A stretch of 64,000 bases of DNA, from NCBI GenBank assembly GCA_002281855.1, contig NCHQ01000002.1, positions 186,001 to 250,000 of the forward strand, given 5' to 3'. The position numbers and the translations under genes are program-made. Positions 26,354-32,667 of this stretch are shown here, piece by piece. Source of the stretch: Rhodospirillales bacterium 24-66-33. GTDB taxonomy: Bacteria > Pseudomonadota > Alphaproteobacteria > Reyranellales > Reyranellaceae. The notes below the pieces were generated by a model. That model did no database searches and was not told the origin of the DNA. It was given only the letters and a program-made list of their open reading frames with translations. How positions within the stretch are numbered: position 1 is the stretch's first letter; the number at the start of each line of letters is the position of its first letter.

Positions 26354-26995
26354 TCAACAATCAGCAGACGTCTTCGGCAGGAGTCGATCGATGGCGTGCA
26401 CCCACACGGCGCAGGCCTGCTCGAACGACAGCTCGAACTGGCCGCGCAGACGTGCCCAGCTCTCGAAATCGACCAGGGCCTCGATTGCCAGCACCGTCTG
26501 GCGGCGCTCGCACGGCTCCAGGGTCGCCAGTTCCGGCGCATAGATCTCCTCGATGCGCCGCACGACCATTTCACGGACGATGCGGATGCGCGCCTTGAGG
26601 TCCGGCGAGTCACCCTGGTTGGCATTGAGGGCGCGCCACAGGGGCAGCCATTCCGCGCAAATATGACCACGCATCTGGACATGCGCGTGGATGCGCTCCC
26701 GGCGGCTGCCGTTCGCCGGCCGAGCGGCCACCTGGGCCGAGGCCTTGAGCAGCGCCTCGTCGGTCGCAGCGACCCGCAACGCGTGCAGGTCCGGAAAGCG
26801 TTCGAAGACCGATCGCACCGAGTAGCCGGCGCGCTGCGCGATCGAAGCGGCTGTGGGTATCTGCGGCCTCTCGCGAAGCAGCGCAAGGTAGGCGTCGACG
26901 ATGAGCTGGCGCGTGCGGGCGCTGCGCAGTCTTCGACCGTCCTTCGGGCTGGGCGTCGCGGATGCTGCGGGCACCCCTTCACCCGCCGCGGTCAT
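26354..26995 (-). CDS. TetR-family regulator, third of a tandem array
   Basis: This 213-residue protein has an N-terminal TetR-type DNA-binding domain: RRLRSARTRQLIVDAYLALL, then helix-turn-helix IAQRAGYSVRSVFERFPDLHALR. It is clearly paralogous to the two genes upstream. The ligand domain shares the EIYAPELATL and ACAVWVHAIDRLLP blocks with its neighbours. Its ATG overlaps the previous stop codon by four bases (ATGA). The target and ligand are unknown. It is the last gene of the three and is followed by tRNA-His. Confidence 0.9.
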   Translation of the reverse strand: MTAAGEGVPAASATPSPKDGRRLRSARTRQLIVDAYLALLRERPQIPTAASIAQRAGYSVRSVFERFPDLHALRVAATDEALLKASAQVAARPANGSRRERIHAHVQMRGHICAEWLPLWRALNANQGDSPDLKARIRIVREMVVRRIEEIYAPELATLEPCERRQTVLAIEALVDFESWARLRGQFELSFEQACAVWVHAIDRLLPKTSADC

Positions 26996-27609
26996 GCGGC
27001 CTCGTTCGGATTCCGGGGCAGCAGCCGGTCGATGGTCTGGATCCAGACGGCGCAGGCCTCATCGACGGACAGGCCGAAATATTCGCGCATGCGTTCCCAA
27101 CTTTCGACGTCGGTCAACGCCTCCAACACGATCAGGGTCTGACGCCGCTCATCGATCTGCATCGTGGCGAACTCCGGCGCAAACATCAGCTGGATGCGCT
27201 CCGTTACGCTGTCGCGCGCCAGTCGGACGCGTGCCTTCAGTTCCGGCGAGTCGCCCTGGTTGACGACCAGCGAGTGCCAAAGGCGCACCCAGCGCTCGCA
27301 GGTCTGGCCGCGCGTCCGCACATGCGCTTCGATCCTGCTCGCGCGGTCGCCCTCGGCGCCCCGCGGCGGCGCCAACGCCGAAACCTGCGCAAAGCAGTAG
27401 TCGACGGCGGCAACCTGCAAGGCAAGGATGTCGGGAAAACGCTCGAAGATCGACCGCACCGAGTATCCAGCCTTTGCCGCGATCTCGGCCGCGGTCGGCA
27501 CGCGCGGCGACAGGTCCTGAGCGAGCGCGAGATAGGCCTCGATGATGAGCTGCTTCGTGCGCTCGCTGCGCAGCCGGCGGCCGTCCACTTTCGTCGGGCG
27601 GACCGTCAT
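26992..27609 (-). CDS. TetR-family regulator, middle of a tandem array
   Basis: This 205-residue TetR-type regulator starts MTVRPTKVDGRRLRSERTKQ. The DNA-binding helix reads AAKAGYSVRSIFERFPDILAL, nearly the same as in the flanking paralogues. The C-terminal half carries FAPEFATMQIDERRQTLIVL and ACAVWIQTIDRLLP. Both ends overlap the neighbouring genes as ATGA, so the three products are probably made at related levels. Function beyond DNA binding cannot be read. Confidence 0.9.
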   Translation of the reverse strand: MTVRPTKVDGRRLRSERTKQLIIEAYLALAQDLSPRVPTAAEIAAKAGYSVRSIFERFPDILALQVAAVDYCFAQVSALAPPRGAEGDRASRIEAHVRTRGQTCERWVRLWHSLVVNQGDSPELKARVRLARDSVTERIQLMFAPEFATMQIDERRQTLIVLEALTDVESWERMREYFGLSVDEACAVWIQTIDRLLPRNPNEAA

Positions 27610-28265
27610 GCGCGAGCCCCACCTTCCGGCGTCGCCGGCAGGAGCCGGTCGATGGCCGCGATCCAGGCCGCGCAGCCTTCGGCGAACGACAAACCATGCA
27701 TGTCGCGAACTCGCGCCCAACTCTCGATGTCGGTGATCGCTTCGAGCGCGATCAGGACATTGCGGCGCTCGGCCTCCGCGAGCGACGTCAGTTCGGGCCG
27801 GTACATCAGTTCCATGCGCTCGATCGTCCGGTCGCGCGCGACCTTCATGCGCATCTTCAGCTCGTCGTTCTCGTCGATGTTGAACAACATTGCCCGCCAC
27901 AACGAGAGGCCCCGCTCGCAGGTCCCTGCCCTGGTCTCCACATGCGAACGGATGCGCGTTGCCCGGTCGCCATCGACGTCGCGTGCCGGGGCCAGCGCGG
28001 CGGCGTGCGCGAGCGCGTAATCCGCTGCCGCGACGCGCAAGGTGTGAAGATCGGGAAAACGTTCGAAGATGGACCTGACGGAATAGCCCGCGCGCTCCGC
28101 GATTTCCGCCGCCGTTGGAACCGGCGTCTGCGGATTCTCCCGGATCAGGGCGAGATAGGCTTCGACGATGAGCTGCTTCGTTCGCTCACTGCGCAGCCGC
28201 CGACCGTCCACCCTGATGTTCTTCGCCGAAGCCGGGTGGCGGGCAGAAGGGTCGATCCAGCTCAT
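27606..28265 (-). CDS. TetR-family regulator, first of a tandem array
   Basis: This 219-residue TetR-type regulator has a DNA-binding domain (GRRLRSERTKQLIVEAYLAL; AERAGYSVRSIFERFPDLHTLR) almost identical to the next gene's. The effector half differs more, although MYRPELTSLAEAERRNVLIALE still aligns. It heads a three-gene operon with ATGA junctions. A possible promoter region lies within 160 bases upstream, next to the 3' end of the aminotransferase gene, but I see no clear operator. Confidence 0.9.
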   Translation of the reverse strand: MSWIDPSARHPASAKNIRVDGRRLRSERTKQLIVEAYLALIRENPQTPVPTAAEIAERAGYSVRSIFERFPDLHTLRVAAADYALAHAAALAPARDVDGDRATRIRSHVETRAGTCERGLSLWRAMLFNIDENDELKMRMKVARDRTIERMELMYRPELTSLAEAERRNVLIALEAITDIESWARVRDMHGLSFAEGCAAWIAAIDRLLPATPEGGARA

Positions 28266-30186: not shown

Positions 30187-31593
30187 ATGGATGCCAAACA
30201 GGTTCTCGCGCTGATCAAGGAAAAGGACGTCAAGTTCGTTGACTTCCGCTTCACCGATCCTCGCGGCAAGTGGCAGCACACGGCCCGCATGGCGTCCGCC
30301 ACCGACGAAGGCACCTTCGAAGACGGCGTGATGTTCGACGGCTCCTCGATCGCCGGCTGGAAGGCGATCAACGAGTCAGACATGATCCTGATGCCGGATC
30401 CCTCGACCGCCGTGCTCGATCCCTTCACCGCGCAGACCACGCTGATCGTGAGCTGCGACGTCGTCGAGCCCTCGACCGGCCAGCTCTACGCCCGCTGCCC
30501 GCGCTCGACCGCCAAGCGCGCCGAAGCCTTCATGAAGTCGTCCGGCATCGGCGACACCGCCGTGTTCGGCCCCGAGCTCGAGTTCTTCGTGTTCGACGAC
30601 GTCCGCTACGACGTGCAGATGCAGGGCAGCTTCTACAGCATCTCCTCGAACGAATCGCCCTGGAACTCCGGCATCGCGGTCGAAGGCGGCAACCTCGCCC
30701 ATCGTCCGGGCGTCAAGGGCGGCTACTTCCCCGTCCAGCCGGTCGACACGCACAACGACCTGCGCGCCGAGATGATGTCGGTCTGCACCGACATGGGCCT
30801 GGTCATGGAAATCCACCATCACGAGGTCGCCCCGGCGCAGAACGAACTCGGCTTCAAGTTCGACACGCTCGTGAAGACCGCCGACAACGTGCAGAAGTAC
30901 AAGTATTCGCTGCACAACGTCGCCCACAGCTACGGCAAGTCGCTGACCTTCATGCCGAAGCCGCTCTATGGCGACAACGGCTCGGGCATGCACTGCCATC
31001 AGTCGATCTGGAAGGACGGCAAGCCGCTGTTCGCCGGTTCGGGCTATGCCGACCTGTCGGAGACGGCGCTGTACTACATCGGCGGCATCATCAAGCACGC
31101 CAAGGCGCTGAACGCCTTCACCAACGCCAGCACCAACTCCTACAAGCGCGTCATCCCGGGCTTCGAGGCGCCGGTGCTGCTGGCCTACTCGTCGCGCAAC
31201 CGCTCGGCCTCGTGCCGCATCCCCTACGCGTCGTCGCCCAAGGGCAAGCGCGTCGAGGTTCGCTTCCCCGATCCGTCGGCCAACCCGTACCTCGCCTTCG
31301 CGGCGATGCTGATGGCCGGACTCGACGGCATCAAGAACAAGATCCATCCGGGCGACCCGATGGACAAGAACCTGTACGACCTGCCGCCGGAAGAACTCTC
31401 CAAGGTTCCGACCGTCGCCGGCTCGCTGCGCGAGGCCCTCAACGCCCTCGACGCCGACCGCTCGTTCCTCACCCAGGGCGGCGTGTTCACCGACGACCAG
31501 ATCGACGCCTACATGGAACTCAAGTGGGAAGAGGTCTACAACTGGGAACACCAGCCGGCCCCGATCGAGTACAAGATGTACTACTCGATCTGA
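30187..31593 (+). CDS. glnA: Glutamine synthetase type I
   Basis: This 468-residue GSI-beta dodecamer subunit makes glutamine from glutamate, ammonia and ATP. Landmarks are [10 protein letters not shown], the [12 protein letters not shown]/metal region, [10 protein letters not shown], and the adenylylation site Tyr in [10 protein letters not shown] near residue 397. It is co-transcribed with glnB, giving joint control by PII and by adenylylation. A strong terminator follows the stop. Confidence 0.98.
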
Positions 31594-31618
31594 TCTCGGC
31601 TCCCGAGTTCACGACAGA

Positions 31619-31647
31619 AGGCCGCCCCTCACCGGGCGGCCTTTTTC
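31619..31647 (+). terminator. Intrinsic terminator of glnBA
   Basis: GGCCGCCC and GGGCGGCC form an 8-base-pair GC stem (extended by one A-T pair) with a 6-base loop, followed by TTTTT. It begins 26 bases after the glnA stop. Confidence 0.9.
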
Positions 31648-31711
31648 TATTTGGCTAGACTGGTGTTTGCCGCCCAGCAGTAATGCGTAGCTGGTCGCCA
31701 GTTCCGTTGGG

Positions 31712-32560
31712 TTAGCCAAGCACCTTCAACGAAACACCATTCCAGAAATTGAGCGCTCGCTTCTCAGCGATTTTCTGCGATCCATTCCAGTCAAAGTTTG
31801 CGCCGCAAATGCCAAGGTTCAGCCGATCGATGATCCGAATTGAGAGTGCCAGAAGCCAGCTGTCGTCGCCGTATTTGGCGGTGGTCAACGGGGCCTTTCT
31901 CGCAGCAGCGAAGGAAAGATTGTGAGCGATGTAGCGGTCCCTTGAATCAACCAATGCCAAGTAGCGATCACATCGGCGAACACGGGTCTCCATTCTTTTC
32001 GCAGATTTTAACCAGTGCAGGGCCTTCTGTGCTTGCTTCACGCCAAATGCGGCACTCTGTGCGTGCGCGATCGACTCAGCCAACTTCTGCACCTCATCGT
32101 CAGAGCCTTCATCTGAGGGAATCACCCTTGCTGGTAGTTGAACCCAATGCCTCTGGGTTTCCTCTGCCAGCAAGGTCCGCACGGCATCACTGTCAACGAG
32201 GGCTGCGATCGTAGGAATACTTTCCCGGTCTGGTTTGCTGGGATCCCATAGCGCGCATAATCGCACCAATTCATACCGATACTGATTGTCACAAAGTAGA
32301 TTGAACGTATGCGCGGCGTGAGATGGCGGCACTTGCTTGGCCAGCGTGTCGGAAAATAGAAGTGCCCTGTTGCTTTCATGAACTGCGATTACATGCAGGA
32401 GGTGATCAACGATCTTTCGTGTTTTCTCTTTCGCCTCCGCAATTCTGTCCTCCGGCGAAAGCATCTCGGGCCACCTCTGTTTATCTGGCTTCCCTTTCAT
32501 AGATTTCTCTTTTTCATCTTCGCGTCCTGGAAATGCGAGTGCTGACTTGGACCGCAACAT
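31712..32560 (-). CDS. Hypothetical protein, HEPN/AbiU2-like
   Basis: This 282-residue soluble, mostly helical protein contains YELVRLCALWDPSKPDRESI and a later RDRYIAHNLSF. The first resembles AbiU2-type HEPN proteins, and the second fits the HEPN Rx4-6H ribonuclease motif (R-x5-H). That assignment is by eye and tentative. Base composition is lower in G+C than its neighbours: three 60-base lines average about 53 percent, against 72 percent for a sampled glnA line. It is alone on its strand between two plus-strand terminators, suggesting transfer. The start could instead be the ATG at 32500 (MKGKPDKQRW). Confidence 0.7.
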   Translation of the reverse strand: MLRSKSALAFPGREDEKEKSMKGKPDKQRWPEMLSPEDRIAEAKEKTRKIVDHLLHVIAVHESNRALLFSDTLAKQVPPSHAAHTFNLLCDNQYRYELVRLCALWDPSKPDRESIPTIAALVDSDAVRTLLAEETQRHWVQLPARVIPSDEGSDDEVQKLAESIAHAQSAAFGVKQAQKALHWLKSAKRMETRVRRCDRYLALVDSRDRYIAHNLSFAAARKAPLTTAKYGDDSWLLALSIRIIDRLNLGICGANFDWNGSQKIAEKRALNFWNGVSLKVLG

Positions 32561-32637
32561 TACCGAAGCTGCTTCAATGAAGGCGCAAAATCCCGCAACT
32601 CACGACGAACTGATCTTCTCCGATCTTTCGGATCATG

Positions 32638-32667
32638 GAAGGGCCCGCTGTTGCGGGCCCTTCTTTT
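32638..32667 (+). terminator. Strong terminator-like hairpin with no upstream gene on its strand
   Basis: GAAGGGCCCGC and GCGGGCCCTTC make a perfect 11-base-pair stem with a TGTT loop followed by TTTTGTT. No plus-strand gene ends nearby, because glnA already has its own terminator about 1 kb earlier. It may protect the dehydratase gene from read-through, or be left over from a lost gene. Confidence 0.8.

Follow-up and report, generated by a model that had tools for sequence, protein, structure and literature searches.

A solitary HEPN_AbiU2-family gene in the glnA-maoC gap of Rhodospirillales bacterium 24-66-33, at a site of varied small cargo

In Rhodospirillales bacterium 24-66-33 a single minus-strand reading frame stands between two plus-strand genes, glnA and maoC, and this arrangement raises the question of what kind of gene it is, how it came to this position and whether it serves in phage defence. 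We addressed this question computationally in a stretch of 64,000 nucleotides (assembly GCA_002281855.1, contig NCHQ01000002.1, positions 186,001 to 250,000), hereafter called the window. The reading frame extends over window positions 31712-32560 on the minus strand, is 282 amino acids long and contains the string RDRYIAH. On the glnA side Pfam assigned its neighbours as PII and GlnA, and on the maoC side as a MaoC-like protein and a CoA-transferase; the MaoC match was weak (15 bits, under its cut-off of 27). The G+C content of the gene is 52.3%, compared with a mean of 65.6% (s.d. 2.4, minimum 57.2) in 849-bp intervals clear of the insert. By codon position its G+C is 0.58/0.42/0.57, and its GC3 of 0.57-0.58 compares with 0.92 in both glnA and maoC and with 0.76-0.89 in three other measured genes. 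The open frame measured 295 codons, against up to 275 codons across 300 dinucleotide shuffles of the segment; a long open frame is weak evidence by itself, and it is homology that makes ORF 31712-32560 a gene. Elsewhere in the window (26992-28265, minus strand) inspection by eye revealed two similar adjoining genes for putative TetR-like regulators, a probable tandem duplication.

The start of the gene is probably not the first ATG of the frame but the ATG at 32500 (M21), 20 codons further inside, because the alignable part of the protein begins downstream of M21 and the stretch AAAGAGAAA precedes this ATG. Nothing like AAAGAGAAA was found upstream of the alternative start at 32560. The two parts of the frame are accordingly listed as follows.

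31712..32500, minus strand: HEPN_AbiU2-family gene, probable extent, 262 amino acids, starting at M21 of the longer ORF (Pfam PF18734, alignment start, possible ribosome-binding stretch)
32501..32560, minus strand: 20 further codons back to the first ATG, possibly an N-terminal extension but probably untranslated (ORF list, composition, upstream sequence)

The window protein matched the Pfam family HEPN_AbiU2 (PF18734) over residues 45-271 with an E-value of 5.7e-13 and 49.2 bits (cut-off 26.8). Homologues were compared in two alignments: A1 consists of the window protein and five homologues, among them the weak homologues of loci L035 and L043, which are absent from A2 and A3, and A3 has 12 rows, each of which, the window's included, matched PF18734 individually. 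One further locus, L080, holds 199 bases of a homologue at a contig edge and is in no alignment, though it is still counted among the 12 homologue loci described below. The residues invariant in all six rows of A1 are L101, D106, T117, R207, A212, H213 and W273, so that the motif contributes R207, A212 and H213. In A3, 11 rows extend to the motif and all 11 have its R and H; the remaining row, L078, stops short of it.

31922..31942, minus strand: Rx5H motif, R207-D-R-Y-I-A-H213, predicted RNase active site (conservation in A1 and A3)

In RDRYIAH, the candidate catalytic pair would be the first R together with the H. PMC3710099 describes HEPN domains with an Rx4-6H motif and a polar residue following the arginine, and in the window protein the arginine is followed by aspartate and the spacing is Rx5H.

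An AlphaFold model built on A3 (pLDDT 85.5, pTM 0.82) has eleven helices and zero strands. With residues numbered from M21, helix 178-190 has R187 (= R207) close to its end, and the short helix that follows has H193 (= H213) close to its start; PMC3710099 describes the motif at such a helix break for HEPN domains. Helix 61-83 is the second long helix of the model and contains, or is directly followed by, the conserved E77 and D86; an accessory acidic residue in helix 2 of HEPN is described in that paper. The predicted fold is thus all-helical and confident, with the motif modelled where HEPN RNases have it. Fold searches against the PDB and against viral models gave no match at E ≤ 0.001. The best PDB match by Foldseek had an E-value of 0.36, and no HEPN chain was recognised among the 50 matches listed in each PDB list, which is evidence neither way; the Z scores of VIA-align (≤ 7.7) were inside the range that its notes give for common helical arrangements. 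At the sequence level, the single protein matched no solved structure and the profile gave four matches at E 0.35-0.44. As no structural match was significant, the grounds for calling the protein HEPN are the profile, the motif and the position of the motif. The earlier note on this DNA had described a low-G+C minus-strand gene with RDRYIAH and had called it HEPN/AbiU2-like. Both descriptions are borne out by the figures above, and the structure prediction that it had proposed as a check returned an all-helical model with the motif at a helix break, which does not speak for a fold other than HEPN.

To learn how the gene is placed in relatives, we compared the glnA-maoC gap across the genus. 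The pair was readable in 57 of 65 genomes, the window's own included; seven of the 65 had no maoC match at E 1e-100, and in G351 glnA was out of reach. The survey covered window positions 31594-32650 and loci L003-L022, L047-L068 and L082-L096, and gap length was taken up to codon 21 in the maoC ORF of the window. A short gap of 93-122 bp was observed in 35 of the 57 genomes, and each of these 35 gaps contained exactly one terminator-like hairpin. The gap was longer in the other 22, of which 18 (the window's included) carried genes and four (G006, G326, G337 and G346) had no detected gene; the gap of G326 was compared with ten cargo queries and scanned for open stretches, the longest being 65 amino acids. 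The cargo was as follows.

SnoaL-like gene: 7 genomes
119-aa protein without a Pfam match: 5 genomes, with an extra gene in G001, G027 and G336 (glyoxalase-like in G336)
alpha/beta hydrolase: 2 genomes
HAD-like gene: 1 genome
90-aa lipoprotein-like gene: 1 genome (by eye)
148-aa secreted-looking gene: 1 genome (by eye)
HEPN gene: 1 genome (the window)

The conserved protein of about 119 amino acids, for which Pfam gave no match, contains the string MFRDA.REYEV and was seen in the gaps of L061, L066, L067, L068 and L009.

In trees that took in 39 of the 57 readable genomes, an 11-genome clade around the window (support 0.978-0.998 in three trees) comprised seven short gaps and four filled ones, each filled with a different gene. 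Directly after glnA, filled sites show a terminator-like hairpin different from that of the short gaps. It was found by script in 14 of the 18, and in the remaining four (G001, G011, G027 and G036) a G+C-rich inverted repeat and a T-run were seen by eye behind glnA; G006 and G337 have a hairpin behind glnA and no gene. The second hairpin, T2, was detected by the script in some of the filled sites only. The features of the window's own site are listed below.

31586..31596, plus strand: left copy of an 11-bp repeat, CGATCTGATCT, overlapping the glnA stop codon (repeat comparison)
31597..32616, no strand assigned: inserted segment of 1,020 bp, made up of T1 and the HEPN gene; 7 of the 10 nearest relatives have short gaps that lack it
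31616..31645, plus strand: terminator T1, just behind glnA, 12 pairs; a hairpin stands here in other cargo-bearing genomes too
32606..32616, plus strand: right copy of the repeat, CGAACTGATCT, 10/11 identical; from CTGATCT on it is the short-gap junction of G324
32637..32664, plus strand: terminator T2, before maoC, 12 pairs; the sole hairpin of short gaps

At the right end of the segment CGAACTGATCT is followed by TCTCCGATCTTTCGGATCATGG, and from CTGATCT onward the sequence exactly matches what the short gap of G324 has across the glnA stop. The preservation of the short-gap junction beside the right repeat favours insertion of the 1,020-bp segment. The repeat could be a target duplication or a look-alike, and a deletion between its two copies could also make a filled site short; the direction of the change is therefore taken from the short gaps in 7 of the 10 nearest relatives. 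The 11-bp match exceeded that of all 200 random windows inside the gap. The same test requires a readable T2 anchor, which seven cargo genomes did not have, and among the 11 testable cargo genomes, the window's included, none of the other 10 had a bounding repeat beyond that of random windows. We therefore claim no common mechanism. No long terminal repeats of the mobile-element kind were found at the segment, and the search for RNA at the site gave only two sub-threshold Rfam matches. Homologous recombination through the end of glnA was considered and rejected: when filled and empty genomes were compared at equal maoC identity, there was no consistent excess of identity in the 110-base glnA tail.

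These comparisons also bear on two statements of the earlier note about the site. It had placed the gene between two terminators, and both hairpins exist, with 12 pairs each. However, their T-runs are on the plus strand, so that T1 and T2 would end plus-strand transcripts and do not bracket the minus-strand HEPN gene; a scan over 3.5 kb gave 4 terminator-like sites, compared with 2.6 (s.d. 1.5) in shuffles. It had also taken the position as a sign of a single-gene defence insertion and had suggested comparing the gap in relatives. This comparison showed that the gene is not always present at the locus, and the insertion itself stands, as the protein was found in none of the 64 other genomes at E 0.001 and the gap is short in 35 of 57. 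The position, however, is no argument for defence, because other species hold mostly non-defence-like genes or genes without a family match at this site. For the same locus we rejected the idea of a defence hotspot, the other cargo being SnoaL-like, alpha/beta hydrolase, HAD-like, glyoxalase or without a Pfam match. Known sites of a similar kind are cargo hotspots that lie between conserved genes and lack mobility genes. The glnA-maoC site shares with them the conserved flanks, the different cargo in sister species and the absence of an integrase from the segment, and it differs in its very small cargo (one or two genes) and in the terminator-like hairpin behind glnA.

The spread of the homologues was then considered. 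At E 0.001, a protein search of the 65 genus genomes (many of them drafts, 44 with at least 90% completeness and at most 5% contamination) detected the window protein in none of the 64 others. A profile search found other HEPN_AbiU2 proteins in 3 of these 64, none of which matched the window protein at E 0.001. At class level, PF18734 was matched in 15 of 289 genomes, the window's own counted, and the match was above the cut-off in 13; among the 398 genomes of the phylum-level set, one other genome had a match to the window protein itself. Used as a single query, the protein retrieved no relatives from the genome_contigs, viral_contigs, plasmids or phages collections (for plasmids and phages, none at E 0.01). 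With the alignment as query, genome_contigs yielded 11 loci and viral_contigs one (L070-L081). The titles of the 11 records name Bradyrhizobium, Devosia, Mesorhizobium, Terricaulis, Hyphomicrobiales or Alphaproteobacteria in ten cases and only Proteobacteria in one; the four genera belong to the Alphaproteobacteria. The homologue at L036, from a genome of the window's class (G159), is identical in protein sequence to that of L076, whose title reads Alphaproteobacteria bacterium, and this gives Alphaproteobacteria as the class; the genus is presumably Reyranella. The search pattern was derived from four sequences of this class, and more distant relatives may therefore escape it. The nearest relatives found are 30-37% identical to the window protein, and in 11 of the 11 listed cases the G+C content of the homologue is below that of its own locus. 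Two Bradyrhizobium copies, 93% identical over 238 codons, gave a dN of 0.035 and a dS of 0.328, indicating purifying selection in the single close pair measured; dS was saturated in three more distant pairs. The frames at L078:8007-8444 and L079:8004-8621 end early, perhaps owing to decay or to sequencing errors.

Phage, transposon, integrase or defence-type genes were found near the homologue in 6 of the 12 loci L070-L081; in the other six, none was found in the part of the neighbours scanned. At L070:2044-10228, a gene of the DISARM-type DrmD is located about 4 kb from the HEPN_AbiU2 homologue, with a DUF5677 gene in between, and at L075:8875-16443 a HEF_HK kinase-like and Response_reg_2 pair, which we take to be linked to defence, stands about 3 kb from the homologue. 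L073 has a tyrosine integrase and a weak small-terminase match, L079 IS110-type transposases and L072 an integrase-core fragment. The viral contig L081 carries a large terminase, a methyltransferase and a serine recombinase near the homologue, together with a DUF2924-resolvase fusion and a PNP_UDP_1 phosphorylase-superfamily gene. Homologue copies also adjoin purD (L072) and ruvB (L077). One core gene, presumably xseA-like, lies within several kb of four homologues (L072, L074, L078 and L035), perhaps a second favoured spot. An all-against-all comparison of the neighbours at 17 homologue loci revealed no recurring partner gene; apart from the HEPN gene itself and the xseA-like gene, the repeats were the shared surroundings of L072 and L074, one genome represented twice (L036/L076) and one match between L079 and L080. 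The absence of a recurring partner fits a one-gene system.

Taken together, the family membership, the conservation of the motif, the predicted helical fold, the insertion at the site and the patchy spread are supported by computation. We consider it probable that this is a horizontally acquired, solitary and intact AbiU2-family HEPN gene, whose product would most likely be a metal-independent RNase acting in phage-triggered abortive infection. The conserved arginine and histidine of Rx5H, the aspartate following the arginine and an acidic residue of the second long helix would constitute the RNA-cutting site, which would probably work in a dimer. The protein would most likely be kept silent in healthy cells and be switched on by a phage cue, and the resulting RNA cleavage would halt the growth of both phage and host. 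The reading as an RNase and a defence protein draws on the placement of the family in PMC3710099, the strict conservation of the motif, the signs of mobility and the defence or phage neighbourhoods of some homologues. Counting against the defence role are the varied cargo at the same site and, according to PMC3985639, the lack of growth inhibition when abiU2 of Lactococcus lactis was expressed in Escherichia coli. Further points against this reading are the absence of a significant match to a solved structure by sequence or fold, of relatives among plasmid and phage records at E 0.01, and of phage, transposon, integrase or defence genes from the scanned neighbours at six of the 12 homologue loci. 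In addition, none of the 5027 models of PADLOC-DB 2.0.0 matched the window protein up to E 10, and the 12 rows of A3 gave a single chance-level match (Cmr3, E 0.024, one row).

The gene could instead encode a toxin of the toxin-antitoxin or element-maintenance kind, brought by a mobile element and without a phage role here, its antitoxin being encoded elsewhere or lost. HEPN toxins paired with MNT proteins are described in PMC3710099, and integrase, transposase or phage genes occur near the homologues in L072, L073, L079 and L081. However, the segment leaves only about 115 bases (with T1) and 56 bases outside the HEPN frame, and the listed ORFs of 124 and 85 amino acids overlap the HEPN gene. 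No MNT gene is adjacent, and the four scanned neighbour proteins (PII, GlnA, MaoC-like and CoA-transferase) had no nucleotidyltransferase or antitoxin family match above the cut-off. Nor does any neighbour recur at the 17 homologue loci beyond shared chromosomal surroundings, and we consider this explanation unlikely.

Alternatively, the gene may belong to a prophage or another element, for exclusion or as an accessory, with a HEPN domain that binds RNA or a partner and does not cut RNA. This would agree with the viral contig on which one homologue occurs together with terminase and recombinase genes, and also with observations on Lactococcus lactis, where AbiU is a two-gene system and abiU2 expressed in Escherichia coli caused no growth inhibition or toxicity, according to PMC3985639. 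In the same report, AbiEii was the only product of the L. lactis two-component genes tested that inhibited the growth of E. coli, and AbiB, AbiF, AbiJ and AbiO likewise did not inhibit it. A silent, phage-triggered protein would also be non-toxic, so that the behaviour of L. lactis AbiU2 does not decide the matter. Binding alone would not explain why no row that reaches the motif has lost its R or H, and we regard a non-cutting protein as improbable. Least probable is that a passing foreign gene, functionless here, was caught in a permissive gap before its decay: the protein occurs in one of 65 genus genomes, the gap houses many unrelated genes and two homologues (L078 and L079) have shortened frames, but the frame in the window is intact, its motif is conserved and the sole homologue pair measured is under purifying selection.

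The favoured reading, that of a solitary AbiU2-family RNase in abortive infection, has its closest counterparts in described HEPN families. HEPN_AbiU2 (PF18734; AbiU2 row of Table 1 in Anantharaman et al. 2013, PMC3710099) is the same sequence family, with the Rx4-6H motif and its polar residue and an all-helical predicted fold. The HEPN_AbiU2 operons described there contain Sel1-repeat, restriction-modification and Bxe_C0808 genes, whereas the gene of the window is solitary. With the AbiU system of L. lactis (abiU1 and abiU2) it shares, by the name of the Pfam model, the AbiU2-type protein. AbiU, however, has the abiU1/AIPR-type partner (the AbiU1/AIPR naming follows PMC3506569), and the window gene has none among its four scanned neighbours and no room for one in the segment. 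A literature search of titles and the beginnings of abstracts, with most subscription papers outside its coverage, returned no biochemical study of any AbiU2 protein.

The gene of the window adds a member to the already known HEPN_AbiU2 family, and the find is real yet fairly ordinary. Tentatively, a broader picture is possible: a family of solo HEPN-AbiU2 RNases for defence, sparse and scattered widely in the Alphaproteobacteria, may lie outside the defence library used, and the glnA-maoC gap may be a site of rapid turnover, where small units, each a terminator-like hairpin with one or two genes, come and go without a mobility gene. If confirmed, the gene would represent a HEPN RNase defence that consists of one gene and is easily tested, and biochemistry would have a solitary protein to work with under a name, AbiU2, that derives from a two-gene Lactococcus system. 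At the exchange site around it, gains and losses of single genes between two fixed core genes are naturally recorded in compact form, and the site could be used for asking how small genes move without integrases.
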